DNA from: Campylobacterales bacterium
GTDB taxonomy: Bacteria; Campylobacterota; Campylobacteria; Campylobacterales; Nitratiruptoraceae
NCBI GenBank assembly: GCA_027065825.1
Contig: JAMONM010000083.1
Location: forward strand, 1 to 32,519
DNA: 32,519 nt
Direction of reading: 5' to 3'
The notes under the pieces were generated by a model. That model worked only from the letters and a program-made list of their open reading frames with translations, searched no databases and was not told where the DNA came from. A program made the translations under genes and the position numbers. Below, piece by piece: positions 12,035 to 29,869 of this stretch (the first letter of the stretch is position 1; each line of letters opens with the position of its first letter).

Positions 12035-12055
12035 TTTGGTATCATTCGTAAAAAA

Positions 12056-12075
12056 GGGAGAGACTCCTCTCTCCC
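12056..12075 (+). other. Hairpin between amt1 and glnK
   Basis: GGGAGAGA and TCTCTCCC form a perfect 8-bp stem around the loop CTCC, in the 61-base gap between amt1 and glnK. No T-tract follows, so it is not a good intrinsic terminator. It could protect or process the message and set different levels of the two proteins. Confidence 0.55.
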
Positions 12076-12086
12076 GTTAACTGTAA

Positions 12087-12434
<348 letters not shown>

Positions 12435-12477
12435 ACTGCGTAAAATTTGTGCAAAAAAATTAAGAACCGTTTAATTT

Positions 12478-12494
12478 TGATTAAAAAATAATCA
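12478..12494. promoter_or_regulatory. Operator palindrome 3 (amt2)
   Basis: TGATTAAAAAATAATCA differs from the two sites near narK/amt1 by one base and keeps 6-base inverted arms. It lies between glnK and amt2, with its centre 30 bases before a TAGAAT box. That would put it near -42, a usual place for a transcription activator. Its presence implies that amt2 has its own regulated promoter. Confidence 0.62.
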
Positions 12495-12515
12495 GTCCAT
12501 TCTCCCTCCTTTTGG

Positions 12516-12521
12516 TAGAAT
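12516..12521 (+). promoter_or_regulatory. Candidate -10 box of amt2
   Basis: TAGAAT 29 bases before the amt2 ATG, downstream of palindrome 3. No good -35 box is visible, which fits an activator-dependent promoter. Confidence 0.45.
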
Positions 12522-12549
12522 TTCGTAAATTCAACCGAAAGGACGGGTT

Positions 12550-13725
12550 ATGGACGCAAATACTCTCTCCTATATCCTCGATACCTTCTTCGCGCTTTTT
12601 GCGATGACGCTGATTATATTGATGGTGCCCGGCTTTGCCATGCTCGAAGCAGGTCTTGTGAGGACCAAGAACGTTACGGCGGTTTTGACCGTGAACACCA
12701 TGATCTATTCGGTGGCTTCGATGGCTTTTTTGTTGATAGGCTATCAGCTCGCCTTCGGCGGCTGGGAAAACGACTCTATGAGCAAATGGGCCGCCTTTTT
12801 GTTTCAGATGGCTTTTGTGGGGAAAACGGTAAATATCATGAGCGGCGGGGTAAGCGAACGGACCAGAATAGTTCCTTTGACCCTCTTTACAATAGTAATG
12901 GGGGCGTTTATATATCCTTTGGTGGTCAATTGGACCTGGGGAGCCAATATGCTAGAAGGTACGATTTTGGATATTAGCTCCATGCACGATCTAGCTGGTT
13001 CAACGGTTATACACTCCACCGGTGCCTGGGCTCTGTTGGCCGCTATTTTGATTATAGGGCCCAGAAAAGGCAGATACGTAGGCGATAAGATAAAGGTCAT
13101 TCCGGCGTCCAATATACCGCTGGTGGTGCTTGGGGCCTTTTTGCTGTGGATTGGATGGTTCGGATTCAACGGCGGGAGCGTGGGTTCGATCAGTACCAAA
13201 GAGAACGCCGACGCTGTGGCGCTGACCATCATGAATACGAATACGGCCGGTTTGGCTGGAGCGATAGCGGTGGGATTGATCGTCTATTTTAGATATAAAA
13301 AGTTCGATATAACAATGATTTTAAACGGCGCATTGGGCGGATTGGTGGCGATTACGGCCGGTGCCGATCTGTTTGATATATACACTCCCATTCTAATCGG
13401 CGCTATAGGCGGAGCTCTCGTGGCCTTTTTCGTTCCCTTTTTCGACAGACTGCGAATAGACGATCCCGTGGGGGCTCTTTCCGTGCATCTGATCAACGGA
13501 ATATGGGGAACTTTGGCGGTGGGAATTTTCGCTGACGTCTCGTTTTTGGATCAGTTAAAGGGAGTGGTCGTAGTCGGAATATTCGCTTTTGTATCCTCTT
13601 ATGCCGTATTGTGGCTGATAAACAGATTCGTTCCCTTTAGGGCCGACGAGGAAGAGCAGCTCGAAGGACTCGATATTTCCGAATGCGGAATCGAATCCTA
13701 TCCGGAATTCAAAAGGGCTATTTGA
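12550..13725 (+). CDS. amt: Ammonium transporter 2 (Amt family)
   Basis: A second Amt-family inner-membrane transporter of 391 residues, distinct from the first: it has no signal peptide and begins directly with a helix. The motif MLEAGLVRTKN near residue 31 and the paired histidines His155 (AGSTVIHSTGAW) and His313 (VGALSVHLINGIWG) are typical. The cytoplasmic tail is short (~20-25 residues) and acidic, with EEEQLEGLDI. It has its own operator and promoter, so it may be expressed differently from amt1-glnK. The stop codon lies inside the hairpin shared with the convergent RND gene. Paired Amt genes with a PII between them suggest two transporters of different affinity, or one acting as a sensor. 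Confidence 0.94.
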   Translation: MDANTLSYILDTFFALFAMTLIILMVPGFAMLEAGLVRTKNVTAVLTVNTMIYSVASMAFLLIGYQLAFGGWENDSMSKWAAFLFQMAFVGKTVNIMSGGVSERTRIVPLTLFTIVMGAFIYPLVVNWTWGANMLEGTILDISSMHDLAGSTVIHSTGAWALLAAILIIGPRKGRYVGDKIKVIPASNIPLVVLGAFLLWIGWFGFNGGSVGSISTKENADAVALTIMNTNTAGLAGAIAVGLIVYFRYKKFDITMILNGALGGLVAITAGADLFDIYTPILIGAIGGALVAFFVPFFDRLRIDDPVGALSVHLINGIWGTLAVGIFADVSFLDQLKGVVVVGIFAFVSSYAVLWLINRFVPFRADEEEQLEGLDISECGIESYPEFKRAI

Positions 13726-13736
13726 GCCCTTTTTTT
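13711..13736. terminator. Bidirectional intrinsic terminator inside both coding ends
   Basis: AAAAGGGCT and AGCCCTTTT make a perfect 9-bp stem around ATTTG. T runs follow the stem in the plus direction and A runs precede it, so it can work on both strands. The amt2 stop (TGA, 13723-13725) and the RND stop (TAG on the minus strand, 13718-13720) both lie within the hairpin. Confidence 0.8.
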
Positions 13737-16700
13737 ATATCCTCTCCTATCAGATAGAGCGCAGGAACCAGTATCAACGTGATAACGGTGGCAAAGAGTA
13801 TTCCAAATCCCAGCGAGATAGCCATAGGTATCAAGAATCTGGCCTGTCTGGAGGTTTCAAATATCATCGGCATCAAGCCTACGAATGTGGTAAGCGTAGT
13901 GAGAAAAACCGGTCTGAATCTGGAGAGTGCTGCCTGAGTGGCAACTTTGAAAGCCGAAAAACCGAATCTTTTTTTATATTCGTTGGCGAACTTCAACATA
14001 ATCAGCGAGTCGTTTATGACTATTCCGCAAAGAGCTATCATTCCAAATAGGCTGATCAGACTCATAGAATAGCCCATCAGCAGATGTCCCAAAATGGCCC
14101 CTATTATCCCAAAAGGTATGGCCGACATGACTATTAGCGGCTGGAAGTAGCTCTTAAAGGGTATGGCCAGCAGTACGTATATAGCTATCAAAGAGAACAA
14201 AAATCCGTATTTGAGCGAGGATACGTTCTCTCTGATTTGCGTCTGCCTCCCTTCGAAGGTGTAACTGAGTCCCGGATACTTTTTTACCAGCTCGTTCAGC
14301 GTGGTACTTTCTAGATCGTTCAATACCTCCAAAGCTCTGCTTCTGGGTCTGATATCCGCCTCCACGTTGATGATGCGCTTTCCGTCTTTTCTGATGATTT
14401 CGGCCGGCGTGGTTGAGATTTTGGTCTCTATGAGGGAGGAGATCGGTACCGATTTGCCTTCTACCACAATATAACCTTTTTCGAATGTGGATAGATCTCT
14501 CCTCTCCTCGAGGGGGAGTTTAGCCAAAATTTTTACTTCATCGGATTCAACAATAATTCTGGCTGCTTCGCTACCGTAAAATCTACCTCTAATCTCCTGC
14601 GCGATCTTTCTGGCGTCGAGCCCCAGTCTGTACGCGGCCGGCTTTAGAGTAAACGAGATCTCCTTTTTGCCTTTTTGAAATCCGGGGTCGATATTGAAAA
14701 CGTTCGGATACTCCTCCAGAGCTTTGGCCACCTCCAGCGCTGCCTTTTTTAATACCTTTTCGTCGAAATGGCTCAGTTCCACTGAAATCGGCGTTCCGTG
14801 GGCTCCTACCGAGGCGGAGGAGAAAAACTGAACCGTTACGGCCCCTTCTATTTTCGGTGTAGCTTCTCTCCATTTTCTTCCAAACTCCAGAGTGCTCATT
14901 ATCTCTTTTCGGATATCGGGATCGGCGAGATATACTCTGACTTCGGCGTATTCGGGTCCGGATCGTCCCACTCTGGCGTAGACGCCTCTGATTAGTTCGT
15001 CCCCTCTGGGGATAGACTCTTTGAGTTTCAGGGCGCTATTTATTAGAATCTGTACCCCTTTTTTGGTTACGTTGACGTCTGTTCCGGTCGGAAATCTAAT
15101 AAAGGCTCTGGCGTAATCGCTTTCGGTATCCGGAAAAAGCTGCATACCCATTCTCCCGCTTAGAGCGAATGACAAAGTGGCCACAAAAAGGGACAGAAAG
15201 AGCGTCAGCGTGGCGTATCTGTGTCTGAGACAGAGCTTCAAAAAGCCGGCGAACTTCGTTCTGATCCACCATCTGAAACTTTTGGAAAATCTTTTTTGAA
15301 AGGAGTCTTTTTCCCTGATTTTCGGAAGCTGTGCGAGGTGTGAGGGCAAAATAAACAGAGACTCCAGCCATGAAATGGTAAATACCGCGGTTACCACCAA
15401 TGGAATGGCTTCGAAAATCTTTCCGGTGACTCCGGGAATAAATAAAATAGGCATAAACGCTATTATGTTGGTCAAAATGCTAAAACTGATAGGTACCGCC
15501 ATCTCTTTGGCTCCGATATAGGCGGCCGCTTTAGGAGGGCATCCCAACTCTTTGTATCTGTGAATGTTTTCTCCTACCACTATGGCGTCGTCCACCACGA
15601 TTCCCAGAGCGATAATAAAAGCAAAGAGGGAGATCATACTAAGAGAGAGATCCATCGGTTCAAAAAGCAAAACCGAACCCAAAAAAGATACGGGAATTCC
15701 CATCATAACCCAAAAGGCTAATCTGGGTTCCAAAAAGAGAGATAGCGTAATTAGGACCAGAACCAGACCCAGCGCCGCGTTTTTTAGCAGAAGCTTTACC
15801 CTCTCTTCGTATACTTTGGCTCCGCTGTATAGCGTTTCGACGCTGATTGAAGGCGGTAGAAACGTTTTAGATTCCTTTATGGTCCGCTCTACGATTTTGG
15901 AAATCTCTATGGGAGAGTAGCTTTGCGGATTTTTCACCTCTACTCTAATAGCGGGCAGTCCGTTGTAAAAAGCAAAGTAGTCTTCATCTTCGAAAGCGCT
16001 CTTTATCGAGGCCACCGCACCCAGAGCCAGCGGTTTCGAAAGAGGCGTCTCTATTACGGGAAGATCTTCGAACTCCTTTGGCCGCTCCCCTCTTTGCCTC
16101 AGTTTCAAAACGATCTCTCCGCTCTCGGTTTTTACTATTCCGGCCGGCAGATCGAGGGACTCTTTGGCTATTTTGGCGGAAACGTCCGTAATGTTGAGTC
16201 CGTACCTGTTTAGAGTTTTTGAATCTATCTCTACCGCTATCTGTAGCGGACTGATACCGTAAAAGGTAACCCTCGATATTTGGGGATTTTCCAGGAGCTT
16301 ATATTTGAGTATTTTGGCGTATCTGTAGAGTTCTATCCTCTCAACCGGACCGTATATCACCAGCGATACGGTTGTTCGTTCGTAGGTTCGTTGGGTAATG
16401 ACGGGTTTTTCGGCCTCTTTTGGAAAGGTTCTAATTCTAAAAATCGCGTTTTCTATATCGTTTTGCAGTTTTGTTAGATCGTAACCCCTGAAACTCTCCA
16501 CATAAACGGTTGCGCTGCCCTCTTTGGCCACCCCTTTGTATCTTTTGATCCCTTCTATAGAGTTTAGAGCCTCCTCGATAGGCATCAGTATCGCCTTTTC
16601 GATATCTTCCGGGGAGGCCTGCGGATAGGAGACTCTGATTTGAACCTCGTCTCTTTCGTAGTCGGGAAACACCTCCTGTTTTACGAAAAAGAGCGCCGCA

Positions 16701-16798
16701 AGGCCGCCGAGAAGCAGCAGTATCATTAAAATGTTGGCGACGACGCTGTTTTCGATCATCCAGCCGATCGGGCTTTTTTTATCGAATCCGCATCTCAT
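13718..16798 (-). CDS. RND-family efflux pump, inner-membrane subunit
   Basis: A proton-driven export pump of 1026 residues, the usual size. It shows an N-terminal transmembrane helix, two large periplasmic loops and two sets of helices. The proton-relay aspartate pair is Asp403-Asp404 in GIVVDDAIVVGENIHRY. This is the pattern of the multidrug/lipophile (HAE) group; heavy-metal CusA-type pumps have a different motif here. The substrate is unknown. It is the last gene of the nine-gene operon and overlaps the adaptor gene by 4 bases. Position after the outer-membrane factor and adaptor genes shows a complete tripartite exporter. The link to the redox genes upstream suggests it exports a specific compound made, modified or released by them. 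Confidence 0.93.
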   Translation of the reverse strand: MRCGFDKKSPIGWMIENSVVANILMILLLLGGLAALFFVKQEVFPDYERDEVQIRVSYPQASPEDIEKAILMPIEEALNSIEGIKRYKGVAKEGSATVYVESFRGYDLTKLQNDIENAIFRIRTFPKEAEKPVITQRTYERTTVSLVIYGPVERIELYRYAKILKYKLLENPQISRVTFYGISPLQIAVEIDSKTLNRYGLNITDVSAKIAKESLDLPAGIVKTESGEIVLKLRQRGERPKEFEDLPVIETPLSKPLALGAVASIKSAFEDEDYFAFYNGLPAIRVEVKNPQSYSPIEISKIVERTIKESKTFLPPSISVETLYSGAKVYEERVKLLLKNAALGLVLVLITLSLFLEPRLAFWVMMGIPVSFLGSVLLFEPMDLSLSMISLFAFIIALGIVVDDAIVVGENIHRYKELGCPPKAAAYIGAKEMAVPISFSILTNIIAFMPILFIPGVTGKIFEAIPLVVTAVFTISWLESLFILPSHLAQLPKIREKDSFQKRFSKSFRWWIRTKFAGFLKLCLRHRYATLTLFLSLFVATLSFALSGRMGMQLFPDTESDYARAFIRFPTGTDVNVTKKGVQILINSALKLKESIPRGDELIRGVYARVGRSGPEYAEVRVYLADPDIRKEIMSTLEFGRKWREATPKIEGAVTVQFFSSASVGAHGTPISVELSHFDEKVLKKAALEVAKALEEYPNVFNIDPGFQKGKKEISFTLKPAAYRLGLDARKIAQEIRGRFYGSEAARIIVESDEVKILAKLPLEERRDLSTFEKGYIVVEGKSVPISSLIETKISTTPAEIIRKDGKRIINVEADIRPRSRALEVLNDLESTTLNELVKKYPGLSYTFEGRQTQIRENVSSLKYGFLFSLIAIYVLLAIPFKSYFQPLIVMSAIPFGIIGAILGHLLMGYSMSLISLFGMIALCGIVINDSLIMLKFANEYKKRFGFSAFKVATQAALSRFRPVFLTTLTTFVGLMPMIFETSRQARFLIPMAISLGFGILFATVITLILVPALYLIGEDIKKGLK

Positions 16799-17889
16799 CT
16801 GTCACTCTTTGCAGGCGCTATTTTCATTCCCTCGTACGCAGCGGGGGGAACCGAGGGGACGAAATCGATCGAATCGCGATCAGTTTTTGCGTAAACGTAA
16901 TCTTTAAAGCTCCAAAGCGGTTCGATTTTCACCTTTTTCAGTCTGTTTTTTTGGACGGTCCATACCGTGTTATCAGCTCCTATGCCGCTTTTAGGTATTT
17001 TATAAACGTTTTTGACCGTTTTTCCCTCGATTTCTCCCCATCTAAAGTCGTTCAAAAATATATTCTCTGCCTCTTGCGCCAAAAATTTAACGTAAAGGAG
17101 TCTGCTCTTGTTTTCGAGCTCTTTCGAAAAGCCCAAAAGAGGGAATTTACTATCTTTGAATTTTAAATACGACTCTTTTGAGAGATACTCTATTTTTTCG
17201 GGATCGATAAGGGTTTTTAGAATCATTTTGTCGACTCTGTATCCTTTTAACAGGATTTTAGAAGCCGATACCACGTCGTTTTTAAACGTTAGGACTTCGC
17301 TCACTTTCATATCAAAAGGCGCAGTAATGGTGCATCTTTTAATGTTCAATTCGGCCCTTTTAAGAGCCGCTTTTGCGGCTTCTAGATTTTTTTCGGCCTC
17401 TTTTAGATAGGGCTTTCTCAAAAGAAAGTCTTTTTGCGATTCCGTAAGGGGTCTATTTAGGATCTGCAGCTCCTTTTTCGCGCGCTCGCTCTTTTTACGC
17501 TCTTGCAAAAGAGCGGTTTCGGCCTGGGCGACTTTGGCTCTGGCCTCTATCAGATCGAGTTCGAAATCGGATCTATCCAGTTTTATTAAAATTTCGTTCT
17601 TTTTGATCGTTTCGTAAGTGAATATTTTGGGATTCAACCACTCCACCGAGGAGGAGACTCTCGGTTTCAATTCCGCGGTTTCGTACGGCTCAATGAGGAA
17701 ATATACCTCTTCTTTGAATCTGTACTCTTTCGGATAGAGCGTTACGAAATCTATTTTCGGGACTCTTTTTTTGTGGTGGGTTTTATGCATTTTGGGTTTA
17801 TGGGTTAGCCACTGATATGAGATATATATAGACCAGAGCGCACTCATAGCTATTAAAAGATAGAGTAATAATTTGAACGCTCTTTTCAT
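16795..17889 (-). CDS. Periplasmic adaptor (membrane fusion) protein of the RND pump
   Basis: Connects the RND pump to its outer-membrane channel. The ATG at 17889 (MKRAFKLLL) is chosen because it overlaps the preceding stop as ATGA, like the neighbouring junctions; a start six codons earlier is also open. A membrane helix (residues ~5-22) is followed by a lipoyl/hairpin part with a coiled coil rich in Ala, Glu and Lys (~110-190) and then beta domains. It is divergent: I see no strong AcrA-like signature, and the call rests on layout, coiled coil and neighbours. At 364 residues the length is normal. The basic HKTHHKKR stretch just after the membrane helix is unusual. Confidence 0.82.
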   Translation of the reverse strand: MKRAFKLLLYLLIAMSALWSIYISYQWLTHKPKMHKTHHKKRVPKIDFVTLYPKEYRFKEEVYFLIEPYETAELKPRVSSSVEWLNPKIFTYETIKKNEILIKLDRSDFELDLIEARAKVAQAETALLQERKKSERAKKELQILNRPLTESQKDFLLRKPYLKEAEKNLEAAKAALKRAELNIKRCTITAPFDMKVSEVLTFKNDVVSASKILLKGYRVDKMILKTLIDPEKIEYLSKESYLKFKDSKFPLLGFSKELENKSRLLYVKFLAQEAENIFLNDFRWGEIEGKTVKNVYKIPKSGIGADNTVWTVQKNRLKKVKIEPLWSFKDYVYAKTDRDSIDFVPSVPPAAYEGMKIAPAKSDR

Positions 17890-19196
17890 TTTTCGATCCT
17901 TTCCCATCCTGCCGTGGTTTTTAAATAGTAATCGGCGATATATTCCATCAAGAGTTTTTTCGTTTCGAGTAGATCTATGCGGTCCTCTAAAAGTTCTATC
18001 TCGTAATCTACGAACTCTATCGGAGTCTTTTCCAGCGACAACATATATTCGTAGCCGCTTTGAGCCCTTTTTTCGTCGTTAACGATTTTTGATTCAATGT
18101 AGGCCACTCTTTTTTGTTGGTAATCTACTCTCTTTTTGCTTTCGACGGCGTCGTTGAGTGCTTTTAAAAGAGCGTCTCTATAAAGATATAGCGCCTCCAT
18201 GGTTTTATTGTAGGAGAGATCGCGTTGGGCTTTTATGCCGCCGCCATCATATAGTGTACTCGATGCCGAAGCACTCAGGGATAAAAACCACTCTTTCAAC
18301 AGGTTGGACAAAGATAGCGCGTCATAGGACAATAGAGCCGAGATCTCGATAGAGGGCAGCCTCAGTTTCGTGGAGAATTCGTAGTCGCTTTCATATTTTT
18401 TTACCCGGTAAAAAAAGGCCTCCAGATCGGGTCTGTTTTTTAGATCCTCTATTGAAATTTCGGGCAGTTTTTTGGGTGTTCGCGACTCCGTGCACTCCAA
18501 TGAGGGAGCTTTTTTTTCTTTGGAGATTAGGTAGAGTATCGATCTTTCGTATGTTTGTGCCAGTAGACGGCTCTTTTTGATCTCATATTCAACCGATTCG
18601 ATTTTCGATTTGGCCTGCAGCAGTTCCGGAAGGCTCTTTTCGTTGCTGAGGAGTCTGTGTCGGATTATTTCGGCTCTTTTTTTCAGCAGAGTCAGTTTTT
18701 TATTTAGCAGAGTCAGTTTTTCTCTTTCGGCGCAGTATGAGTGGTAACTGTTTGCCAAATCGACGCTCAGTTCTATTTTGACCGCCTGATTTTGAGTCGC
18801 CGTTTCATAGGAGGCGAACGTTGCCGAATCGACTCTGTTTCTGTTTTTTTTGAATATATCGGGATCGTAATAGAGCGAAAACCGCAAAGATTCGCTGCGG
18901 TATGAGGGTTCTCCCTCCGATTTTTCGACCCCTTTCGAGGCTCTAGCCTCGAGATTCGGCGAAAGCTTTGAGAGAGCTTCTAGTTTTAGGGCCAATGACT
19001 GTTTAAGTCTGTATCTAAGAGAGCGAATTTTCCAGTTGTCGTTCAAAGCTGTTTGTATCAGGGAGGTTAGCTCTTTGTTTTCATAAATTTCCCACCACCG
19101 TTCAACTTGTTTTTCCGGCAAGGAGTCCCGCAGAGGTATATCCTTTACAGAACATCCGGAGAGAATCGCGATTATGAGGAGCGTTAATATCCTCAT
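17886..19196 (-). CDS. Outer-membrane efflux lipoprotein (TolC/NodT-like factor)
   Basis: Outer-membrane channel of the tripartite exporter. The first residues form a lipoprotein signal with lipobox LSGC, so Cys15 would carry the lipid. The mature part begins with a W-W-E-I-Y-E-N-KEL pattern typical of NodT-type factors and continues with long amphipathic helices in two repeats. It is 436 residues long, in the usual range. The ATG overlaps the preceding activase stop by 4 bases, and the adaptor gene overlaps its end in the same way. It is one of three exporter genes at the 3' end of the long operon, so its partner pump is the one encoded here, though such channels can serve several pumps. Confidence 0.85.
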   Translation of the reverse strand: MRILTLLIIAILSGCSVKDIPLRDSLPEKQVERWWEIYENKELTSLIQTALNDNWKIRSLRYRLKQSLALKLEALSKLSPNLEARASKGVEKSEGEPSYRSESLRFSLYYDPDIFKKNRNRVDSATFASYETATQNQAVKIELSVDLANSYHSYCAEREKLTLLNKKLTLLKKRAEIIRHRLLSNEKSLPELLQAKSKIESVEYEIKKSRLLAQTYERSILYLISKEKKAPSLECTESRTPKKLPEISIEDLKNRPDLEAFFYRVKKYESDYEFSTKLRLPSIEISALLSYDALSLSNLLKEWFLSLSASASSTLYDGGGIKAQRDLSYNKTMEALYLYRDALLKALNDAVESKKRVDYQQKRVAYIESKIVNDEKRAQSGYEYMLSLEKTPIEFVDYEIELLEDRIDLLETKKLLMEYIADYYLKTTAGWERIEK

Positions 19197-19990
19197 AACT
19201 CTTCATAGGCCTCTTTTGCTATAAGAGCCGCCCCTAGAGCGGTAGTGGTCTGAGGATTGTCCGCCACGGCGATTTTTGTGGATAGCTCCTCCTCCAAAGC
19301 CGCCACCAGTCCTCTGTTTAACGCCGGTCCGCCGTCGAAATACACGACCTCCTTTAGCCCTACCCGTTTTATCAGTTTGGCGACTCTTCTGGCGATGGAG
19401 TAATGTATTGCTGCCACTATATCCTCTTTTTTATGCTCGTTGCCCAACAGTGTGATTATCTCCGATTCCGCGAATACGGCGCAGGTGCTGTTTATCGTCA
19501 ATACGGTATCTCCTGATGCGAAATGGTATTTGGCCAACTCGTCCACGCCTATTTCCAGCTTCGCAGCCGCCACGTCGAGAAATTTTCCCGTTCCCGCTGC
19601 GCATCTGTCGTTCATGGCGAAATTCGTTACGTTTCCCTCTTCGTCGAGGGAGATCGCTTTGGAATCCTGTCCGCCTAGATTTATTATTGTCCTTATGATA
19701 CCAAATTTTTCGCCTGCTTTTCGCGCTCCTACGGCGTTGGCGGTAATTTCGCTGATGGTTTCGTCCGCCTCTTTGTACAGCTTTCTGCCGTATCCTGTAG
19801 CTACGGTATAGCTGATGTCTTCGAATGTTAGGTTTACCGATTGTAGGAGTCTTTCGAGGCTCTCTTTTGCGTATTTGTAAAACATGCTGCCGCTTGCCGA
19901 GACGCTTTGGGCGACTATATTTTCATCTTTGTCTACTATAACGATTTTTATGGCTGTAGAACCGATATCGATTCCTGCGAAAAAGCTCAT
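19193..19990 (-). CDS. ATP-dependent activator of double-cubane/2-hydroxyacyl-CoA dehydratase type (HgdC/YjiL family)
   Basis: An ASKHA-fold ATPase that, in this family, holds one [4Fe-4S] cluster between two subunits and pushes electrons into a partner iron-sulfur protein by ATP hydrolysis. The start at 19990 is set by an ATGA overlap with the upstream partner gene; a frame opening at 20158 lies within that gene and is not used. Nucleotide-site motifs are GIDIGSTAIK (6-15), NLGGQDSK (104-111) and FDGGPALN. The cluster ligands are expected at Cys130 (NDRCAAGTGKF) and Cys170 (NSTCAVFAESE). At 265 residues it is normal for the single-domain activators. The upstream gene encodes the matching HgdB/YjiM-like protein. 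Confidence 0.92.
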   Translation of the reverse strand: MSFFAGIDIGSTAIKIVIVDKDENIVAQSVSASGSMFYKYAKESLERLLQSVNLTFEDISYTVATGYGRKLYKEADETISEITANAVGARKAGEKFGIIRTIINLGGQDSKAISLDEEGNVTNFAMNDRCAAGTGKFLDVAAAKLEIGVDELAKYHFASGDTVLTINSTCAVFAESEIITLLGNEHKKEDIVAAIHYSIARRVAKLIKRVGLKEVVYFDGGPALNRGLVAALEEELSTKIAVADNPQTTTALGAALIAKEAYEEL

Positions 19991-21258
19991 TTTTTCTTTC
20001 TCCTTCTCGCTTTTAGAGATTCTACGAAGGCTTCCACTCTGGTCAACAGCTGTCCCCCTTGGGCCGGGCTGTAGTCCGATTCGATGTATAGTACCGGAAT
20101 TCCCTCTTTGCCCAGCGCTTCCATTACACTGTGTCTTTCCATTTCGTATACCTGACATCCGGCGAAGGACTGGTAAACCACGCCGTCAACTTTATAAGTT
20201 GCTATTAGATCTTTGATTCTTCTGATTCTGTCCTCGTTTCTGGTAAATATCGGACAGGTGCATCCCTTTAGGTATCTATCGGCGACCGCGTCCACCATAT
20301 CGTATAAAAACCATTCGTCCACGCTGACGAAATCGTTTAGCAGTCGATTTGAGGAGCATGTTTCGTCGGCAACTATGATTGCATCGCTCTGCTCTATCAT
20401 CATGGGAAGCTTTAGATTCGGAAAAATCGGAGGAGATCCGGTATATAGTATTCTGGGGGATCTTTTTCCGCATGAGGAGAGGTTTCGGTTCGCTCTTGAG
20501 TCTACTTCTTTGAGCACCTCTTTTGCAGCTTCGGTCCATCTCTCGAGGTCGTCGAAAAAGAAAGCGTTTGTCATTAAAAAGATTTCGCTTCCGCTGATAG
20601 GGACATTTTGTAACGTTCTGTAACCGTTTATCTCGTGATAGACTTTTTGAGCCTCTCTAATTTTTTTGATCGACTCTTTTAAATCTGATCTTTTGAGTTT
20701 TACTCCCATCAGTTTTTGCAGCTCTTTTGCGAATCTTCTGACGCTGGCTCTCCAGTATCTGCGGCTCTCTTCGCTCTCCTTTACTCTGGGAAACTCCATA
20801 TGGTACATTTGATATCCCATCTCTTCGGCCAGCGAGATCGCCTTGGTTTTTTGGTCGCATGTGGTGGGATGGACGATCAAAGAGAGGTTTTTTTCGTAAG
20901 GGGACTCGAAATTGCTCAGCATACCTAGGGTGGCTTTTACCAAAGAGCAGGATTTTGCGGGCATAAAATCGGAGCCTTTTTGCTCCATGACGTAAAACCC
21001 GTTACAGAGCCTAACCGGAACGGCTCCTAGAGCTCTGATTATCTCTTCGGGAACCTGGATACACATGGTTCCGATCAGAGGGGCCGCGGTAGAGAGTCTA
21101 TTTTTTTTGCAGTAGATATCCTCGTAGAGGTTTAGAAAATACTCCATCGACTCCAGAGGCGATTTAAGATCGAATCTAAACGCATCGATCACTTTTTGGG
21201 CTTCCGCGGCCTCGTATCTGGCGATTTTGGTTTTTTGAACTCTGTTTTTATCTATCAT
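19987..21258 (-). CDS. Double-cubane cluster-type protein, HgdB/YjiM-like (2-hydroxyacyl-CoA dehydratase family)
   Basis: A cytoplasmic iron-sulfur protein of the HgdB/BcrB family. With 423 residues, a single subunit, and no dehydratase partner subunit gene nearby, it fits the double-cubane cluster proteins (E. coli YjiM type), which with an activator reduce small molecules such as acetylene or azide in the characterised Carboxydothermus case. Candidate cluster cysteines are Cys66 (GTMC), Cys104 (AKSC), Cys134 (TTC), Cys301 (DETC), Cys335 (GCTC) and Cys368 (AGC), three in each half, as expected for a double cubane. Its start overlaps the stop of the polyferredoxin gene by 11 bases and it overlaps the activator by 4. 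No acyl-CoA metabolism genes lie near it. The natural substrate is unknown. Confidence 0.88.
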   Translation of the reverse strand: MIDKNRVQKTKIARYEAAEAQKVIDAFRFDLKSPLESMEYFLNLYEDIYCKKNRLSTAAPLIGTMCIQVPEEIIRALGAVPVRLCNGFYVMEQKGSDFMPAKSCSLVKATLGMLSNFESPYEKNLSLIVHPTTCDQKTKAISLAEEMGYQMYHMEFPRVKESEESRRYWRASVRRFAKELQKLMGVKLKRSDLKESIKKIREAQKVYHEINGYRTLQNVPISGSEIFLMTNAFFFDDLERWTEAAKEVLKEVDSRANRNLSSCGKRSPRILYTGSPPIFPNLKLPMMIEQSDAIIVADETCSSNRLLNDFVSVDEWFLYDMVDAVADRYLKGCTCPIFTRNEDRIRRIKDLIATYKVDGVVYQSFAGCQVYEMERHSVMEALGKEGIPVLYIESDYSPAQGGQLLTRVEAFVESLKARRRKKK

Positions 21259-22213
21259 TCTCTTTGTCCATCCTTTCTATAAACCCCTCTTTGGTGGATC
21301 TGAACACGGTCCATTTTAACAGATCCACCCTCAGTGCATCCTCTTCGGGGCAGGAGGCTACGCATTTTAGACAGAATATGCAGTCGTCTCTGAGAATGTT
21401 TTCGCTGTTTACGTCGTCGGCTATATCTTTGATCTGCATGTCGCATACTCTGTAGCAGTCTCCGCATTTTGTGCATCTTTCGCCGTTTTTTTTGAGTTTC
21501 AGTATCGCCGCGGGACTGAAAATATAATGCATCGCGCTCATCGGACAGAAAAAGCAGAAAAACCTCTTTTTAAAAAAGGATCCGATTAAAAAAAGCGCGC
21601 TGAAGGCTACTCCGAAAAAGGTCAAAAAGAGAGCCGTCGCGCTGGAGAAATCCAAAAACCACTGGGAGAAGTCGCCGACGAACATTGGGGTTATGAGTCT
21701 ACCGGGACACATTTTGCAAAATGCCGCTCTCCACTCTCCGTCGAGAAGTCCCACTCCTATAAACAGAGGCATTACGACTACGACGGCTAAAAATATATAT
21801 TTTATTTTGCTGAGGGCCTTGAACTGCTCTTCTTTGTAGGTTCCGTATGGTATTTTGAAAAATTTTCTAAGGGAGGTCAGCCAGTCCTGTACGGTTCCGA
21901 GAGGGCAGAAATATCCGCACCAGGCTTTGTTGAATATCACAAACCAGGCCAGAAATATCAAAAACCCGGTAAGTACTCCCAGGCTTTCGGCGCTAAAGAG
22001 TCTATCCCAGGGTCTTGCCAGCTGATGCTGCAGGGGCATAAAATAGCACATTCCGCCGTGTTCGCGATTGTAGCCGCAGGAAAATATGGGCAGCTCCCTG
22101 CCTAGATCGATAGCGAGATATCCTCCGTAGACAAAGAGTGCAAAAGCAACCAGTTGTATGAGGAACCTATATTTTCTCAGATCGATTCTGTCTAGAGCTT
22201 TTTTAATCTTCAT
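21248..22213 (-). CDS. NapH/CcoG-like membrane polyferredoxin
   Basis: Inner-membrane iron-sulfur protein of 321 residues with about five hydrophobic helices. It carries three membrane-edge C-X2/3-C-P motifs (C99-X3-C103-P, C166-X2-C169-P, C220-X2-C223-P) and two C-terminal [4Fe-4S] ferredoxin motifs (C247-C250-C253-C257 and C278-C281-C284-C288). Two further cysteines (Cys46, Cys56, in a loop with SCGYNREHGGMC) probably face the periplasm. NapH moves electrons from quinol, and CcoG has been described as a copper(II) reductase, so transfer between quinol, a metal or the cytoplasmic double-cubane protein is possible. It overlaps both neighbours by 11 bases. The direction of electron flow cannot be told from sequence. 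Confidence 0.9.
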   Translation of the reverse strand: MKIKKALDRIDLRKYRFLIQLVAFALFVYGGYLAIDLGRELPIFSCGYNREHGGMCYFMPLQHQLARPWDRLFSAESLGVLTGFLIFLAWFVIFNKAWCGYFCPLGTVQDWLTSLRKFFKIPYGTYKEEQFKALSKIKYIFLAVVVVMPLFIGVGLLDGEWRAAFCKMCPGRLITPMFVGDFSQWFLDFSSATALFLTFFGVAFSALFLIGSFFKKRFFCFFCPMSAMHYIFSPAAILKLKKNGERCTKCGDCYRVCDMQIKDIADDVNSENILRDDCIFCLKCVASCPEEDALRVDLLKWTVFRSTKEGFIERMDKENDR

Positions 22214-24455
22214 CGAATGTCACCTCTTTGTGATCGGCTTTGGATTTTCTGTATAGTACCACCACTATCCCGACTCCAATCAGTATCAAAATAGTGGCCA
22301 TTATGGCGTAGGCCGTGGACTCGTATTCGTTTCTGTGGGGAGAGAAGGCTCCAAAATATGTGGTTGTTACCATTTTGTCCCCTATGTTTTCGCTAACAGA
22401 GACTATAAATTTTTCGCGGTATCTTTTGTTGAATTTATCTTTGGGCGGAAAGTAGTCTCTGATTAGTCTGAAAGTAACTTTTCCATTTTCGTCAGTAAGC
22501 GATCTTTTTTGCCAACCGAACTCAGTTTGAAAGGTTACCGGAACTCCCGCGAGCGGTTTTTGGTTTTTCAGAATCAAAAAGGTCACCTTTTGCGAGGTTC
22601 TGAGTCTGGAGTAGAAGTTTTCGTTCTCGTTTCTGAGTCTCAAAATATCCAAAACTATATTTTTTGGAGCCACCGGGGCCATTTTTTCTTTGTCGTATTC
22701 GGTGTGGGAGGAGTGGTCGAATCTTTTGTATTCGGTTTTGGCAATTTTTAGCCATCCGTTGTTTTCGGCTATAAAATATACGGTATAGTATCCGCTTTTA
22801 GGTACCTCAAAAGAGGTCTGCAGGCATCTTTTTTTTCTTTTTTCGAGTCTTTTTTGCTCCTTTTTGTAATCTATCAGTAAAAATTCGCCATCTCCTTTTA
22901 GACATTTGGGATTAGAGAGCTCTCCTCCCATGGCTTTTACTCTCATAAGAGGAGGGCCGTTTTTTTGTCTTGCGGGTCTGTAAGCTCTTTGTAGCCATAT
23001 GGTTTTTGCCTTTTGTATATCGATCGCCTCCACTTTGTTTCGGTGGGAATGGGTTTGATGCTGATGGTGGGCTCGCGGCTTTCTGCCGTAGGTCTCTATT
23101 ACGTAATCTCTGTATAGGGTGACTCCTACGAAGAAAATTATCAAAGAAGCCGCAAAGGGATAGGCTATTATCTTTTTTAGCTTCTGAGCTTCGATCAGGG
23201 CGAATCTTTTATATAGAATATAGAGCGCCCATATGATTCCGATCCATTTAAAAGCGTCGAAAATCTGAAGCCACCGTTCGCCTCTGGAGGCGAGAGGCTC
23301 CACGTCGATATAGATTCCGAACCCCCACGCTATTCCCTCTACGATACGTTCGTAGTTTCTGACAATAAAAAACTCTAGAGCGTGGCCCAAGGATGACATA
23401 ATAAACAGTGGAGCGAAAGCGTAGCCGAGGGTCTCGAAGGTCTCTTTGAACGTTCTGTTTAAAATTTTTGAAGCTATCGTCATACCTAGCAAAGCCGCGG
23501 CTACGCTAAAGAGCAGAGCGTAAACAAAGGTAAAGAGTCCGGCAAGATCGACGGATGTTTTTCCGATTAGAGACTCAACCGCCTGGGCGGTTTGATTCCA
23601 TATGAACTGATCGGCTATATTGCTCCTGTTTAGTCCGTGGTGAAAAGCCATCGATATGGGAATTGAGGCCAAAATCAAGATGTAGGTCCATATTTCGGCT
23701 CTTAGGGGTTTGAACTTTTTATAAAGCGAAAAGCCCGGTTTTACGGTTTTGAATCTGACCGCTTCGCAACTGTGGGTACACTCCATACAGAGCGTACAGT
23801 CTTGCATGGAGTTTTTCTTTTGGAAGTTAAACGGGGATAGACCGTACGGACAACTTTTTGCGCATTCGAATCCTTTACAGCTTTTACAAGCCTCGGAATA
23901 GGTGTCGAACCAGGTAAATGAGAGTTTGGAATAGGCCCTAAGAGCCGTTCCGATAGGACAAATATATTTGCAGTAGGCCATATCTTTGTAAAGAAAATAG
24001 AATATAAACGCGATTACTGTCATAACGGCAAACAGTACGGCGCTACCCAGAGGCGTTCTGTAAACGCCCTCGAAAGCGTAGTGGACGCCCCACCATCCGA
24101 AAACCAGCAAGAAAATCCCTATATATCTGTTCGCCAGAAAGCCCGGGATTTTCTTTTTGAGCCCTATCATCGTTATATATTTTCCCAAAAAACCGTGAGG
24201 ACAGATTCCGCAAAAGATTCTGCCGAAGGTAGGGAGGGTAACCACTATAAAAAGAGGCCAAAAAAGACCCCAAAATAGAGCCGTGGTGAATATGTTCTCT
24301 TTTGATGGATGTGCAAACCCCATATATATGGCGTAAAAAAATAGCGCCGTCGTCGCTACTCTAACGAAAAGAAGAAAAGTTTTGTTCTTAAATATAAAAT
24401 TAAAAAGCGGATTTTTAAAAAGATCTGATGCCGCTCTTTTGATCGTTTTGACCAT
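22203..24455 (-). CDS. Large NosR/NapH-like polyferredoxin with periplasmic C-terminal domain
   Basis: A 750-residue inner-membrane protein. The first half has several helices with C82-X2-C85-P and C162-X3-C166-P motifs, then two [4Fe-4S] motifs at C190-C193-C198-C202 and C220-C223-C226-C230. More helices follow (~255-450). A histidine-rich stretch, HHQHQTHSH (463-471), follows the last of these helices, then a region of ~230 residues that includes a beta-sandwich-like part (TFLILKNQKPLAGVPVTFQT...TDENGKVTF) resembling DUF4198 or carboxypeptidase-regulatory domains, and a final helix (~715-735). The C-terminal domain is probably periplasmic and may bind a metal. It likely passes electrons between the quinol pool and a periplasmic or cytoplasmic partner. 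An AAAAGGACGGGGA site precedes the ATG. Confidence 0.85.
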   Translation of the reverse strand: MVKTIKRAASDLFKNPLFNFIFKNKTFLLFVRVATTALFFYAIYMGFAHPSKENIFTTALFWGLFWPLFIVVTLPTFGRIFCGICPHGFLGKYITMIGLKKKIPGFLANRYIGIFLLVFGWWGVHYAFEGVYRTPLGSAVLFAVMTVIAFIFYFLYKDMAYCKYICPIGTALRAYSKLSFTWFDTYSEACKSCKGFECAKSCPYGLSPFNFQKKNSMQDCTLCMECTHSCEAVRFKTVKPGFSLYKKFKPLRAEIWTYILILASIPISMAFHHGLNRSNIADQFIWNQTAQAVESLIGKTSVDLAGLFTFVYALLFSVAAALLGMTIASKILNRTFKETFETLGYAFAPLFIMSSLGHALEFFIVRNYERIVEGIAWGFGIYIDVEPLASRGERWLQIFDAFKWIGIIWALYILYKRFALIEAQKLKKIIAYPFAASLIIFFVGVTLYRDYVIETYGRKPRAHHQHQTHSHRNKVEAIDIQKAKTIWLQRAYRPARQKNGPPLMRVKAMGGELSNPKCLKGDGEFLLIDYKKEQKRLEKRKKRCLQTSFEVPKSGYYTVYFIAENNGWLKIAKTEYKRFDHSSHTEYDKEKMAPVAPKNIVLDILRLRNENENFYSRLRTSQKVTFLILKNQKPLAGVPVTFQTEFGWQKRSLTDENGKVTFRLIRDYFPPKDKFNKRYREKFIVSVSENIGDKMVTTTYFGAFSPHRNEYESTAYAIMATILILIGVGIVVVLYRKSKADHKEVTFDED

Positions 24456-24473
24456 TCCCCGTCCTTTTATGGT

Positions 24474-25121
24474 TTATAAAGCGTAAAATCCTCCAATTAG
24501 CGCGACGCCGCCTATAAATAATAACGTGCACGCCCCTATCTCTATATGGAGTCTGTATTTTTCGAACTGACTTACTATCCCTTTGATAACCGGAGCGAAA
24601 AAGAGACCGAAAAATAGCGTGGTCATAATTGAGGTTCCTAGTCCAAAAACCGTTCCGTATCCGATCGCTTCCCACAAAGAGTGGGCCGATGCCGCTATTG
24701 CGGCAAGAGCCAGCAACGGAGCGCAGAGGTTCAGAGAAAAGAGCGCTCCTATTGAAAACGAGCTCATATTGGCGTAACTTTTGCCGATGCCGCACGCCAA
24801 TGAGCACCCTTTGCGACTGACGGTTTTATATGCGAGATAAATGGAGATCGCGATCATGGCGCCGCCGCCTATTAACGAGGATACCTCCGGTTTAAGCAGG
24901 CTTTTTATCGCGCCTGAAGTCAAATAGGAAAGGGCGGCGATCGTTCCGTACGAGAATATTCTGCCGGCTCCAAACAGTAAAACAAGCCTTATAGAGCTTT
25001 GCATATCTTTGCCGGCGGCGATCAACAAAGGCCCGACGACGGGCCCGCAGGATATGGTGCAGGCCGTTGTACCGTACACCAGGCCGGTAGCGAACAGGGC
25101 CAAAAAGGAGATTTTTTCCAA
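24474..25121 (-). CDS. TauE/SafE (DsbD-like) membrane protein
   Basis: A 215-residue inner-membrane protein with six or so helices, of the group annotated as sulfite exporter TauE/SafE with a DsbD/CcdA-like fold. The start is TTG, chosen because TAAGGAG (containing the receptor gene's stop) lies five bases before it. A cysteine pair in the first helix (TACTISCGP, Cys21 and Cys25) and a cysteine in the mirrored position (NLCAPL) resemble the thiol pair of CcdA-type electron carriers; a third group is GCSLACG. Members of this group are found beside CcoG and copper-ATPase genes in cbb3 oxidase assembly operons, so thiol or metal handling is more likely than sulfite export. The gene lies between the receptor (9 bases) and the large polyferredoxin (18 bases). 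Confidence 0.82.
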   Translation of the reverse strand: MEKISFLALFATGLVYGTTACTISCGPVVGPLLIAAGKDMQSSIRLVLLFGAGRIFSYGTIAALSYLTSGAIKSLLKPEVSSLIGGGAMIAISIYLAYKTVSRKGCSLACGIGKSYANMSSFSIGALFSLNLCAPLLALAAIAASAHSLWEAIGYGTVFGLGTSIMTTLFFGLFFAPVIKGIVSQFEKYRLHIEIGACTLLFIGGVALIGGFYAL

Positions 25122-25130
25122 CGGCTCTCC

Positions 25131-27311
25131 TTAGAACTTGTAGCTCATACCCACGTAGTATACTCTGCCAGGATCGACTCTGATGCTGGCGTCCTCGGCG
25201 TTGAGTACGCCGTCTTCGTTCCTGTCGCGGTAGAGGTATACCGATCTAAAGTACTGATTGTCGAAAAAGTTGTCCACTCTTGCGAAAAACTCAAAATCGT
25301 TGCCCTTGATTTTGGCGTTATATCTCGCCTGAAGATTCAACACGCCGTAAGAGGGCATTTTTACGAAATTGGTTTCGTCGGCGTAGTAGCTGGATTGCCA
25401 ATACCACTCGGGAACAAGGGTCCAGTTTTTGTCGATCTTTATATATGTGAACAGATCGAATTTGTGATGAGGCACTCTGGGGAGCCTATTGCCCGAAATA
25501 TCGTACGTTTCGTCGTCTTCGGCATCTCCAGGTCCCAGCGATACCGTAAAGGGGAGATGGTTTCTATAATAGGCGTCCAAATAAGTATACGCAAGATCGA
25601 AGGATATCTTTTTGCTTCTGTCGCTTTTTAGGCTAAGCTCTATACCGGTGTTTCTGGCGTCACCCACGTTGTCGAAATATAGATTGGCTCCGTCGGCGGA
25701 ATAGTATGTACCGCCGTTTCTGGCTATCATATCGTAAGTATCCAGAACGAAAGCGCTAAGCTCGTACGTAAAACTGTTGTTAAGCGCCCGTTTGCTTCCT
25801 CTGATCCCGATTTCGTAATTAATGGTGGTTTGAGGATCTATATCCGGATTGTTCTGGCTGTATCTGTCCGGATCGTAGTCGTATGCGTATAGCTCATAGA
25901 TCCTAGGATTTCTAAAACCTGTTGATACGCTGGCGTAAACGGTATCTTTCGAGTCGAGTTGATATGAGGCTCCGAATCTGTACGATATGTTGGTATAGCT
26001 TTTGTCCCTGGAGGAGCTTTGCAGGCTCCAATTGGTTCCGTCGAAGCTGTATTGTACTATATCGTATTTATATTTTTCGTAATCGTATCTACCGTTTACG
26101 GTCAGGGTGGTTTTCGGATTTAGCATATACTTTAGTTCCGTATAAACCGCGTATCTGTCTTCCGTACTTTTCGTATCGCTCCACTCTCCGGCGTAATTTG
26201 TGCCGCTCCATCTACTGCCGTAAGTGGCCGTGGTTAAATCGTACTCCTTTAGCTCTCTTTGTCCTACGTCCACGCCTACCATGTAGCCCAGTTTTTCGTA
26301 CTTGTCTCTATATTCGCTTTTAAATCCCTTTTGATAAATATCTTCGCTACTTTTTCTCGTATAGGTATCGTCGGCTCCGTCACCGTTGAGGTCCTGCGGA
26401 GAGGCTATATAGTCGTAAAGATCTACGTAGTAGTAGAGGTTGGCCATCAAGTTGGCGCCAGAATCGAAATCTTTGCTATAAGTTAGAAAATATTTATCTA
26501 TATCTGAATAGTAGTCATACGCCCAGGGCCAGTCGCCGTCGTCCGCTCCGGTGGGATTGGTTTTGGCGGCCGTAACTCCGGTAACGCTGCCTCTGGTACT
26601 TTCGTCATATTTTCTTGTTATGTCTATTCCGAGCGTGATTTCGCTCATATCGTCTATGAAATAGGTCAGTTTGCCGCTGGCCGATTTGGACCATGCCTGG
26701 CTGTATTGCCAAAAGCCTCCCGTATATCTGTATGCGGCTACCAGATTGGCCAGAAAATTTTCGCCGCTTTTATACATCTGGGCCCTGTAGTTTTGGTAGG
26801 CGTAGCTTCCGTATTCGGCTTTTAGGGATACCTCGTTTTTGTTTTTCGGTTTTTTGGTGGTGATTATTACGGCTCCAGCCAGCGCGTTGGGACCGTACAG
26901 ATAGGAGGCTCCCCCCTTGATCACCTTGATGCTTTCAATCTCGTCCAGATTGAATTTTACCTTTCCGCCGTTTTGTAAAACCGGAACTCCGTCTATAACT
27001 ATGGCTACTCCCGTATCTTCCCACATAAACTCCTGCTGGTTGACGCCCCTGATGTGTATCTCGACGGTGTCTCCGGCCCTTACGTCGGCAGTTATTCCGG
27101 GTACCGTTCTTAGGACTTCGTTTATATTTTTTGGATCGATTATCTCTATCTTTTGTTCTTCGATGATATTGACCGTAGAGACTTCCGTAGCCGGATTTTT
27201 GAAAATATCTTCTATGGTGGAGGACTCTACCGTTATAGGATCGACCGCGTAGTTTTCGGCCATCAAAATCGAAGCCGCCAGCGACAGATATAGCGCCTGC
27301 TTGAGTCTCAT
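25131..27311 (-). CDS. TonB-dependent outer-membrane receptor
   Basis: A 726-residue gated outer-membrane porin that imports a scarce ligand using TonB energy. It has a signal peptide (first ~18 residues, ending LMA), a TonB-box-like PITVESS near residue 25, a plug domain (~40-155, with RGVNQQEF, IDGVPV, VIKGGASYLYGPNALAG) and a beta-barrel ending in the aromatic GMSYKF. The ligand cannot be named; such receptors take iron, nickel or copper complexes, cobalamin or other compounds. Two calcium-loop-like stretches (DLNGDGADD at 307-315 and DRNEDGVLNAED at 696-707) are unusual. An AAGGAG site lies five bases before the ATG. It is the first gene of the nine-gene operon, and exbB-exbD-tonB lie 4 kb away. 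Confidence 0.93.
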   Translation of the reverse strand: MRLKQALYLSLAASILMAENYAVDPITVESSTIEDIFKNPATEVSTVNIIEEQKIEIIDPKNINEVLRTVPGITADVRAGDTVEIHIRGVNQQEFMWEDTGVAIVIDGVPVLQNGGKVKFNLDEIESIKVIKGGASYLYGPNALAGAVIITTKKPKNKNEVSLKAEYGSYAYQNYRAQMYKSGENFLANLVAAYRYTGGFWQYSQAWSKSASGKLTYFIDDMSEITLGIDITRKYDESTRGSVTGVTAAKTNPTGADDGDWPWAYDYYSDIDKYFLTYSKDFDSGANLMANLYYYVDLYDYIASPQDLNGDGADDTYTRKSSEDIYQKGFKSEYRDKYEKLGYMVGVDVGQRELKEYDLTTATYGSRWSGTNYAGEWSDTKSTEDRYAVYTELKYMLNPKTTLTVNGRYDYEKYKYDIVQYSFDGTNWSLQSSSRDKSYTNISYRFGASYQLDSKDTVYASVSTGFRNPRIYELYAYDYDPDRYSQNNPDIDPQTTINYEIGIRGSKRALNNSFTYELSAFVLDTYDMIARNGGTYYSADGANLYFDNVGDARNTGIELSLKSDRSKKISFDLAYTYLDAYYRNHLPFTVSLGPGDAEDDETYDISGNRLPRVPHHKFDLFTYIKIDKNWTLVPEWYWQSSYYADETNFVKMPSYGVLNLQARYNAKIKGNDFEFFARVDNFFDNQYFRSVYLYRDRNEDGVLNAEDASIRVDPGRVYYVGMSYKF

Positions 27312-27347: not shown

Positions 27348-27412
27348 AAAAAAGAGTGTTAAATTTGCGTTAATTAAAGCTTAAACAAATTATTAATTCA
27401 AAATCTTAATGA

Positions 27413-28862: not shown

Positions 28863-29869
28863 TGAGAGTAGTTTTAAAAAATCCTCTCGATATGCATCTG
28901 CATCTTCGAGACAACGAGATGCTCCAAAAAGTGGCGCCTTTTAGCGCCAGGTTTTTCAGCGGGGCGCTGATTATGCCCAATCTGGTTCCGCCCGTAACTA
29001 CGAAAGAGCGGCTTTTGGGCTACAAAGCCAGAATAGCTGATGCTATAGGGGCGGAGAGTTTTGAACCCTATATGACCCTTTTTTTTAAAGAGAGTTACGA
29101 TTACGATTTTTTGTCGGATATAAAGAATGAGATTTTAGCCGTAAAACTCTATCCAGCCGGCGTGACTACCAACAGCGAGGCCGGCGTGAAGGGGGTGGAT
29201 ATCCGGAGATTGGGGCCGGTTTTTGAGGCAATGAGCGATCTGGGAATTCCCCTGTGCGTACACGGAGAGAGCGAAGGATTCGTAATGGATCGGGAGGCCG
29301 AGTTTATTCCGGTTTATGAAAAACTGGCAAAAAGCTTTCCAAAGCTAAAGATAGTAATGGAACATATAACCACAAAAGAGGCTGTGGAGGCTCTGGAGCG
29401 TTACGAGAATCTCTACGCCACCATCACGCTGCATCATCTGTATATTACTCTCGACGACTTGGCCGGGGGGCTTCTTAGGCCCCATCTGTTTTGCAAACCG
29501 ATAGCCAAACGTCCCGAAGATAGAATGGCGCTAAGAAGAGCCGCATTTTCGGCTCATCCAAAAGTGATGTTCGGAAGCGATTCGGCGCCGCATCCCAGGG
29601 AGAAAAAGGAGGCTCCGGGCTGTGCGGCCGGAGTATATACCGCTCCTGTCGCTCTGCCTGCTTTGGCGCAGCTTTTTGAGGAGGCGGGCGTTTTGGATAA
29701 TCTCCAAAAGTTTGTCAGCGACAACGCCAAAGTCGTATACGGCGTTAATCCTCCGAAAAAAGAGGTCGTGTTGATCAAAGAACCTTATAGGGTAGAAAGA
29801 GAGTATTGCGGAGTGGTTCCAATGTTCGCCGGCGAGAGCCTAAAATGGAGAGTGGCGGATGTCATATAA
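28862..29869 (+). CDS. pyrC: Dihydroorotase
   Basis: Zinc enzyme of pyrimidine synthesis that converts N-carbamoyl-aspartate to dihydroorotate. It is the compact class II (E. coli PyrC-like) form of 335 residues. Metal and active-site residues are in place: His12 and His14 in DMHLHLRD, the lysine expected to be carbamylated at Lys95 (AVKLYPAG), His134 (CVHGE), His168 (MEHITT) and Asp240 (GSDSAPH). The start overlaps the preceding stop by one base, and its end overlaps the response-regulator start by 11 bases, so it is in one operon with both. No other pyrimidine genes are in the window. Confidence 0.96.

Follow-up and report, generated by a model that had tools for sequence, protein, structure and literature searches.

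A nine-gene operon built around a double-cubane reductase

The stretch of 32,519 nucleotides analyzed here, hereafter the window, is an entire contig of the 1.6-Mb draft genome of a Campylobacterales bacterium of the family Nitratiruptoraceae. It contains a tightly overlapped operon of nine minus-strand genes (13718-27311), the first six of which (TonR, DsbD_2, A, B, HgdB and HgdC) form a conserved core. TonR (25131-27311, 726 amino acids (aa); Pfam PF00593/PF07715) is a TonB-dependent outer-membrane receptor; among solved structures, YncD and PqqU are nearest to it. Downstream are encoded a DsbD_2-family membrane protein (24474-25121, 215 aa, TTG start; PF13386, E 4e-16), the membrane polyferredoxin A (22203-24455, 750 aa), characterized by profile matches, an AlphaFold model and Foldseek, the NapH-like membrane polyferredoxin B (21248-22213, 321 aa), identified by a family profile search and cysteine conservation, an HgdB-type reductase of a double-cubane cluster protein (DCCP) subfamily (19987-21258, 423 aa; NF040772, PF06050), and the HgdC-type ATPase activator (19193-19990; TIGR00241, 223.8 bits against a cut-off of 125.4). 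The remaining three genes encode an accessory exporter that consists of the outer-membrane factor OEP (17886-19196; PF02321, E 1e-21), the periplasmic adaptor MFP (16795-17907; TIGR01730, E 2e-19, under the curated cut-off) and the RND permease (13718-16798; PF00873, E 1e-155).

The junctions between the mechanically called open reading frames range from 11-base overlaps to an 18-base gap, so that the original prediction of nine closely packed genes is borne out in full. The gaps separate TonR from DsbD_2 (9 nucleotides) and DsbD_2 from A (18 nucleotides), and A/B and B/HgdB each overlap by 11 nucleotides. The HgdB/HgdC overlap of 4 nucleotides (ATGA) follows from the HgdC start at 19990, which was read directly in the sequence and was chosen because the alternative 321-aa frame starts too far upstream. 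HgdC/OEP and MFP/RND likewise overlap by 4 nucleotides, as does OEP/MFP provided that an internal methionine is the MFP start. A terminator-like inverted repeat (13711-13733) lies where the last gene, RND, ends. The second gene had originally been labeled TauE/SafE; the public annotation of a homolog does use this name, whereas the Pfam match is to DsbD_2. Four cysteines of this protein (C21, C25, C106 and C133) are invariant in 61 sequences.

The HgdB protein barely passes the DCCP model NF040772 (350.9 against a cut-off of 350 bits) and matches the DCCP structures 7yyl/6eno with E 1e-78. Seven of eight invariant HgdB cysteines align to cysteines of 7yyl/6eno, all of them invariant in 72 sequences, and the adjacently encoded HgdC has two cysteines, invariant in 62 sequences, as expected of an activator that provides two cysteines for a bridging [4Fe-4S] cluster. 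The HgdB proteins of this module comprise a distinct subfamily: within the order, their scores with the window protein are 445 bits or higher, compared to at most 212 bits for all other full-length DCCPs. The known DCCPs reduce molecules such as acetylene, azide and hydrazine, and their physiological role is not established; one ATP per electron could take donors of this type toward -1 V (PMC11971306).

Protein A consists of an N-terminal Fer4_5 region with two [4Fe-4S] motifs, a transmembrane region, a histidine-rich linker (HHQHQTHSH), a DUF4198-like domain (residues 480-705) and a last transmembrane helix. In the AlphaFold model, the C-terminal beta domain (480-705) is well predicted, and Foldseek finds its best matches in the zinc-, cobalt- or copper-containing forms of Zcp (E 5e-9 and similar) and in the nickel-bound DUF4198 protein 9gcb (E 1.5e-5). 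A sequence search of this domain against the Protein Data Bank (PDB) returned nothing, the fold search alone yielding matches, and the similarity to Pfam PF10670 stays below the cut-off. Thus modeled, the domain has the DUF4198 metal-binding fold. The free N-terminal histidine of the described DUF4198 site is not found in A, where the domain comes after a transmembrane segment and is preceded by the histidine-rich linker. In several relatives of A, a NosL domain (PF05573, E 1e-12 to 2e-17) is inserted between the membrane and DUF4198 domains. Proteins with DUF4198 bind nickel, zinc and cobalt and are found near TonB receptors (PMC12537917), and the domain is also encoded in gene clusters for periplasmic metal reductases (PMC8238504). 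NosL functions as a chaperone for Cu(I) (PMC7558416, PMC6530538).

Protein B contains 16 invariant cysteines, four of which (C46, C56, C166 and C169) are on the predicted periplasmic side according to a topology assigned by eye from the sequence and are missing in NapH of the same genome. With the NapH quinol dehydrogenase model B scores 76.6 bits, short of the cut-off of 234. Its AlphaFold model (mean pLDDT 66) is too poor to place the four cysteines.

These features bear on where the double cubane acts. It might serve a cytoplasmic small molecule, for instance by modifying or destroying an imported ligand, with B and A feeding electrons to HgdB or sensing its redox state. The soluble small molecules reduced by known DCCPs, such as acetylene, azide and hydrazine (PMC11971306), and the retention of the DCCP cysteine set in HgdB are compatible with such a role. 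However, the conserved core lacks an importer that would bring an organic ligand across the inner membrane, and the fused periplasmic metal domain of A points outward. Furthermore, the quinol-type electrons that a NapH-like protein would deliver would be too weak for HgdC, which together makes a cytoplasmic substrate quite unlikely. Most likely, the double cubane is a booster that feeds low-potential electrons via B and A to the periplasm.

Conservation of the core and variability of the exporter

Homologs of A are present in 57 of the 299 sampled genomes of the order and in 25 of its 81 genera, within two types of neighborhoods. The full module encompasses TonR, DsbD_2, A with the C-terminal domain, B, HgdB and HgdC. 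The simple form comprises TonR and an A protein of 450-490 aa without B or Hgd, often together with ExbB/ExbD/TonB and a two-component pair. When the B alignment was scanned against 84,980 species genomes, 79 loci were kept, from Campylobacterota, Methylococcales, other Gammaproteobacteria, Betaproteobacteria (Thiobacillus, Sideroxydans, Gallionella, Dechloromonas and Rhodoferax) and one record titled Candidatus Polarisedimenticolaceae. Among the 77 loci with a readable B (several contigs end early; raw counts, not weighted for kinship), the same-strand neighbors of B include A and HgdB in 75 each, DsbD_2 in 68, HgdC in 66 and a TonB receptor in 57. In most of these loci, the genes overlap at the A-B, B-HgdB and HgdB-HgdC junctions, often by 4-14 bases, and the recurrence of such overlaps across phyla implies that the gene order is not due to chance.

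The co-occurrence of HgdB/HgdC with both polyferredoxins, DsbD_2 and the TonB receptor, which the original prediction proposed to examine, is accordingly maintained across phyla, and the arrangement, rather than being unique to one genome, recurs among the 77 loci of different phyla. The prediction also knew of no described system of this make-up; our literature searches, which covered mainly openly accessible papers, found no published description of such a gene combination.

A named carrier is Sulfurovum mangrovi ST1-3, in which the entire module resides on a 395-kb replicon labeled plasmid (NZ_CP087125.1); there, the TonB receptor is annotated as two coding sequences and a second TonB receptor is found at the module end. 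In a genome of the same genus as the window genome (G020, contig C10), a second locus comprises TonR, OEP-MFP-RND, a short version of A and a fragment of HgdC, with no intact B or HgdB found; it resembles a copy of the module that has decayed or been simplified.

Four Methylococcales-type loci have a gene for a CobN-family protein next to the module (L123:2645-6724, L133:6120-10391, L143:13854-18032 and L152:2-4096). Two of these proteins are matched by Pfam and some have an apparent signal peptide; DUF2149 and ExbB-like genes are located nearby in some of the loci. The one CobN-family protein that was compared with solved structures is closest to the heme de-chelatase HmuS, an enzyme that uses NADH to reduce the heme it binds, through an electron route that is not established (PMC12583661). 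These loci could represent a de-chelation system and raise the possibility of metal release from tetrapyrroles, whereby TonR would import heme or another metalloporphyrin and the metal or the ring would be reduced so that a chelatase-like protein could remove the metal. However, a CobN-family gene is found in none of the 22 genomes of the window's family, so that heme/CobN was rejected as the general substrate; moreover, TonR falls short of the heme-receptor cut-offs and the modules of Campylobacterota share a copper-linked regulatory element (see below). As an explanation of the module, tetrapyrrole metal release is therefore very unlikely; within the methanotroph clade, a tetrapyrrole substrate is possible because CobN-family proteins adjoin four modules of this type.

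The exporter shows a different pattern. The RND permease is closest to drug-type (HAE) models (NF033617, 493 bits) and reaches 261 bits, against a cut-off of 701, with the CusA/CzcA metal-type model TIGR00914. OEP-MFP-RND comes after HgdC in the window and in two genomes of the same genus (G019 and G020). In the sister family f4, the exporter forms a convergent operon that starts with a response regulator gene, followed by OEP, MFP and RND, and in a methanotroph of the Methylococcaceae (L166), OEP-MFP-RND comes immediately after DsbD_2. Many Sulfurimonas and Sulfurovum loci have another, stand-alone RND (about 26% identical) after HgdC, and many module loci lack an RND altogether. Given this variation in position and type and the many loci without it, the exporter appears to be a recurrent accessory rather than a core component. 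In the RND tree, the window-type and methanotroph proteins cluster together against a thinly sampled background, and we do not claim co-inheritance. Of the import-reduce-export cycle that was originally envisaged, import and ATP-driven iron-sulfur reduction are thus embodied in a core conserved across phyla, whereas export is confined to the accessory part.

A direct-repeat element shared with nosZ and copper genes

A direct-repeat box, TTAACGCAAATTTAACA (27357-27373, minus strand), which matches TTAACA-N5-TTAACA at 11 of 12 positions, is located upstream of TonR. A second box with 11/12 matches, TTAACTCAAATTTAACA (31342-31358, plus strand), precedes exbB by about 45 bp. The 11-base period of such a repeat is typical of OmpR-type regulators, and the plus strand of the window encodes an OmpR-type response regulator (29859-30515; PF00072/PF00486), a candidate to bind the box, with its partner sensor histidine kinase (30457-31356; PF00512/PF02518). 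Homologs of the regulator adjoin modules in other genera, and some are themselves preceded by the box. Downstream of the kinase are genes for ExbB (31403-31828; PF01618), the energizer of TonB receptors, ExbD (31818-32192; PF02472, TIGR02804) and, directly after exbD, a probable TonB whose N-terminal part (32205-32519) is cut by the contig end; all are on the plus strand. In many relatives, exbB homologs are inside the module operon.

Within 200 bases upstream, a box with at least 11 of 12 matches precedes 32 of 34 module receptor genes, compared to 2 of 512 unrelated genes of the same loci; the counts are intermediate for genes of response regulators, ExbB, DsbD_2, NosL-containing proteins and other TonB receptors. 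Perfect boxes, searched in 12 genomes, precede nosZ and genes for NosL, OprC/NosA-like receptors, DsbD_2 and response regulators, and one is borne by the response regulator-led exporter operon of a family f4 genome (G059). The best match of the other receptors under the box is TIGR01778, below the cut-off on partial sequences. This search returned 49 sites, and some of these must be chance occurrences because the reversed control pattern gave 18. Among 60 nosZ genes drawn from the order, 32 have a box, in either orientation, within 600 bases ahead of the region of homology, whether or not the genome encodes A; the frequency in shuffled sequences is about 0.4% per strand. The sole perfect copy in the window genome is just upstream of nosZ, with the 11/12 copies before the module and exbB; with one mismatch allowed, the genome contains 11 sites and the control pattern yields 8, so that single 11/12 sites lean on the comparative evidence. 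The distribution of the TTAACA-N5-TTAACA sites suggests a candidate nosZ/copper regulon, so far unrecognized. For Nitrosophilus labii, Crp/Fnr control has been proposed (PMC11539149).

Among the sequences collected around the box, the nosZ upstream regions (L233-L292) show it near about half of the nosZ genes of Campylobacterales, with two different orientations and positions. In two genomes, the gene directly 3' of a perfect box encodes a membrane protein that weakly matches cytochrome c at its C-terminus (L193:1709-3016 and L208:1584-2924). A cluster encoding PqqD-like, ATP-grasp, decarboxylase and membrane proteins (L229-L232; G000:C98:24904-25929), possibly involved in peptide modification, is kept in the four genomes of the family that bear the module and is more divergent elsewhere. 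Lying near a box site in one genome (G017), this cluster was considered as a source of the ligand and dropped, as the box is missing in G000 and G019 and divergent homologs occur in module-free genomes.

The regulatory evidence also bears on iron. Reductive recycling of a ferric siderophore would have TonR import a tight Fe(III) chelate, the ATP-driven double cubane reduce it, FeoB take up the Fe(II) and the RND pump export the ligand. The potentials of Fe(III) catecholates go down to about -750 mV, and recycling of this kind accounts for a very low potential better than copper does. TonR reaches no NCBIfam cut-off and scores best with the general siderophore-receptor model, below its cut-off; FeoB is encoded in the window genome, and a drug-type RND suits an organic ligand. 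In addition, DUF4198 is present in PepSY-type iron-reductase clusters (PMC8238504). However, Fur-box-like sites upstream of most operons were not above the shuffle level in a crude scan that had no positive control, the operon includes neither a PepSY reductase nor an ABC importer, relatives of A contain NosL domains, and the box is common to nosZ and to NosL and OprC/NosA-like copper genes. Siderophore recycling hence appears fairly unlikely. The original analogy with pyoverdine and iron is weakened by the same observations, and pyoverdine-type iron recycling is less likely than a role in copper acquisition.

Elsewhere in the window, two ammonium transporter (Amt) genes flank a PII gene (10754-13725), convergent with the operon; the end of the second Amt frame overlaps that of RND by 8 bases at a common inverted repeat. 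The region 1762-10459 encodes assimilatory nitrite and nitrate reductase-type proteins together with a DmsC-like anchor that carries a fused ferredoxin domain; next come genes for a fusion of PP2C phosphatase and protein kinase and for an MFS transporter.

Reductive copper acquisition and related systems

The composition and conservation of the module, the sharing of the box and the metal-binding folds are computed results, from which we infer the metal, the direction of electron flow, the ligand or substrate, the role of the pump and the regulator. On balance, there appears to be an even chance that the core is a TonB-dependent, reductive metal-acquisition module, the cargo most likely being copper on an organic or sulfur ligand; the module would then probably help these bacteria capture copper. 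TonR, powered by ExbB/ExbD/TonB, would carry the metal-ligand complex into the periplasm. HgdC would hydrolyze ATP in the cytoplasm to place electrons onto the predicted [8Fe-9S] cluster of HgdB, from which they would pass through the membrane polyferredoxins B and A to the periplasmic face. There, the metal might be held by the DUF4198 domain of A, with the help of the NosL domain in some relatives, and, once reduced, be freed to periplasmic chaperones and on to copper enzymes such as NosZ. DsbD_2 might move either thiol electrons or metal across the inner membrane, and the RND pump, where present, could export the emptied ligand. The operon would be controlled by a two-component system with nosZ as a further target.

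Several observations weigh against copper. The weakest point is that Cu(II) is easily reduced, and nothing in the data explains the need for ATP-driven electrons; possible reasons are a ligand of very high stability, binding of the copper to sulfide or a reduction that targets the ligand itself. TonR does not match the copper-receptor family TIGR01778 (OprC/NosA) at E 0.001, and membership in that family was rejected. DUF4198 is best known for nickel and from iron-linked clusters, and the predicted models of B and of the iron-sulfur region of A have low confidence. The association with NosZ is modest (18 of 29 genomes with the module HgdB against 101 of 270, p 0.015 with relatedness ignored) and 11 module genomes have no NosZ, so that a strict tie between the two was rejected. 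The regulator assigned to the box is a candidate suggested by gene neighborhood and box type. Finally, the box was not seen in beta- and gammaproteobacterial modules, and the copper link is accordingly tested only in Campylobacterota.

More specifically, the module might represent a new class of systems in which ATP hydrolysis coupled to a double cubane drives electrons of sub-ferredoxin potential across the inner membrane. These electrons would strip from the TonB-imported ligand a metal, probably copper, to be used by copper enzymes including nitrous oxide reductase. Such a proposal is tentative and its truth doubtful. If correct, it would provide a physiological role for a DCCP subfamily and, to our knowledge, the first ATP-powered periplasmic metal reductase, and it would bear on the biological consumption of the greenhouse gas N2O. 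Copper supply for nitrous oxide reductase in bacteria from anaerobic or sulfidic habitats is poorly known, and the operon makes this question testable; through the same conserved operon, the physiological role of DCCPs becomes directly testable as well.

Comparison with known systems shows that each shares a part of the module. The DCCP and ATPase reductase of Carboxydothermus has in common the family model, the conserved cysteines and the adjacent activator ATPase, and YjiM of Escherichia coli is a 31% relative; unlike these, the module HgdB forms a separate subfamily, tied to the membrane polyferredoxins and the TonB receptor. The pyoverdine system (FpvA, FpvG, PvdRT-OpmQ) similarly combines a TonB receptor, an inner-membrane electron conduit and a tripartite exporter; the OEP, MFP and RND components are present here as well, yet are not conserved with the core. 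Further differences are an ATP-driven iron-sulfur reductase, a copper-type control element and the lack of a PepSY-type FpvG or an ABC importer in the window.

The CcoG cupric reductase and the ccoGHIS copper-maturation cluster share with the module a membrane polyferredoxin, and a DsbD_2-type protein may also be encoded near ccoGHIS-type genes. However, the ccoGHIS cluster includes no TonB receptor or ATP-driven reductase, and the CcoG family is not among the NCBIfam matches of A or B at E 0.001. The PepSY-DUF2271-DUF4198 iron-reductase clusters resemble the module in combining transmembrane electron transfer with DUF4198 and, sometimes, TonB genes (PMC8238504); in the module, iron-sulfur polyferredoxins and an ATP-driven donor replace PepSY and the flavinylated DUF2271, and DUF4198 is fused to the conduit. 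In some methanotrophs, components of the hmu/HmuS heme system, namely a TonB receptor, an ExbB-like protein, DUF2149 and a CobN-family protein, adjoin the module, whereas the window's family has no CobN and the hmu operons, as described, have no DCCP.

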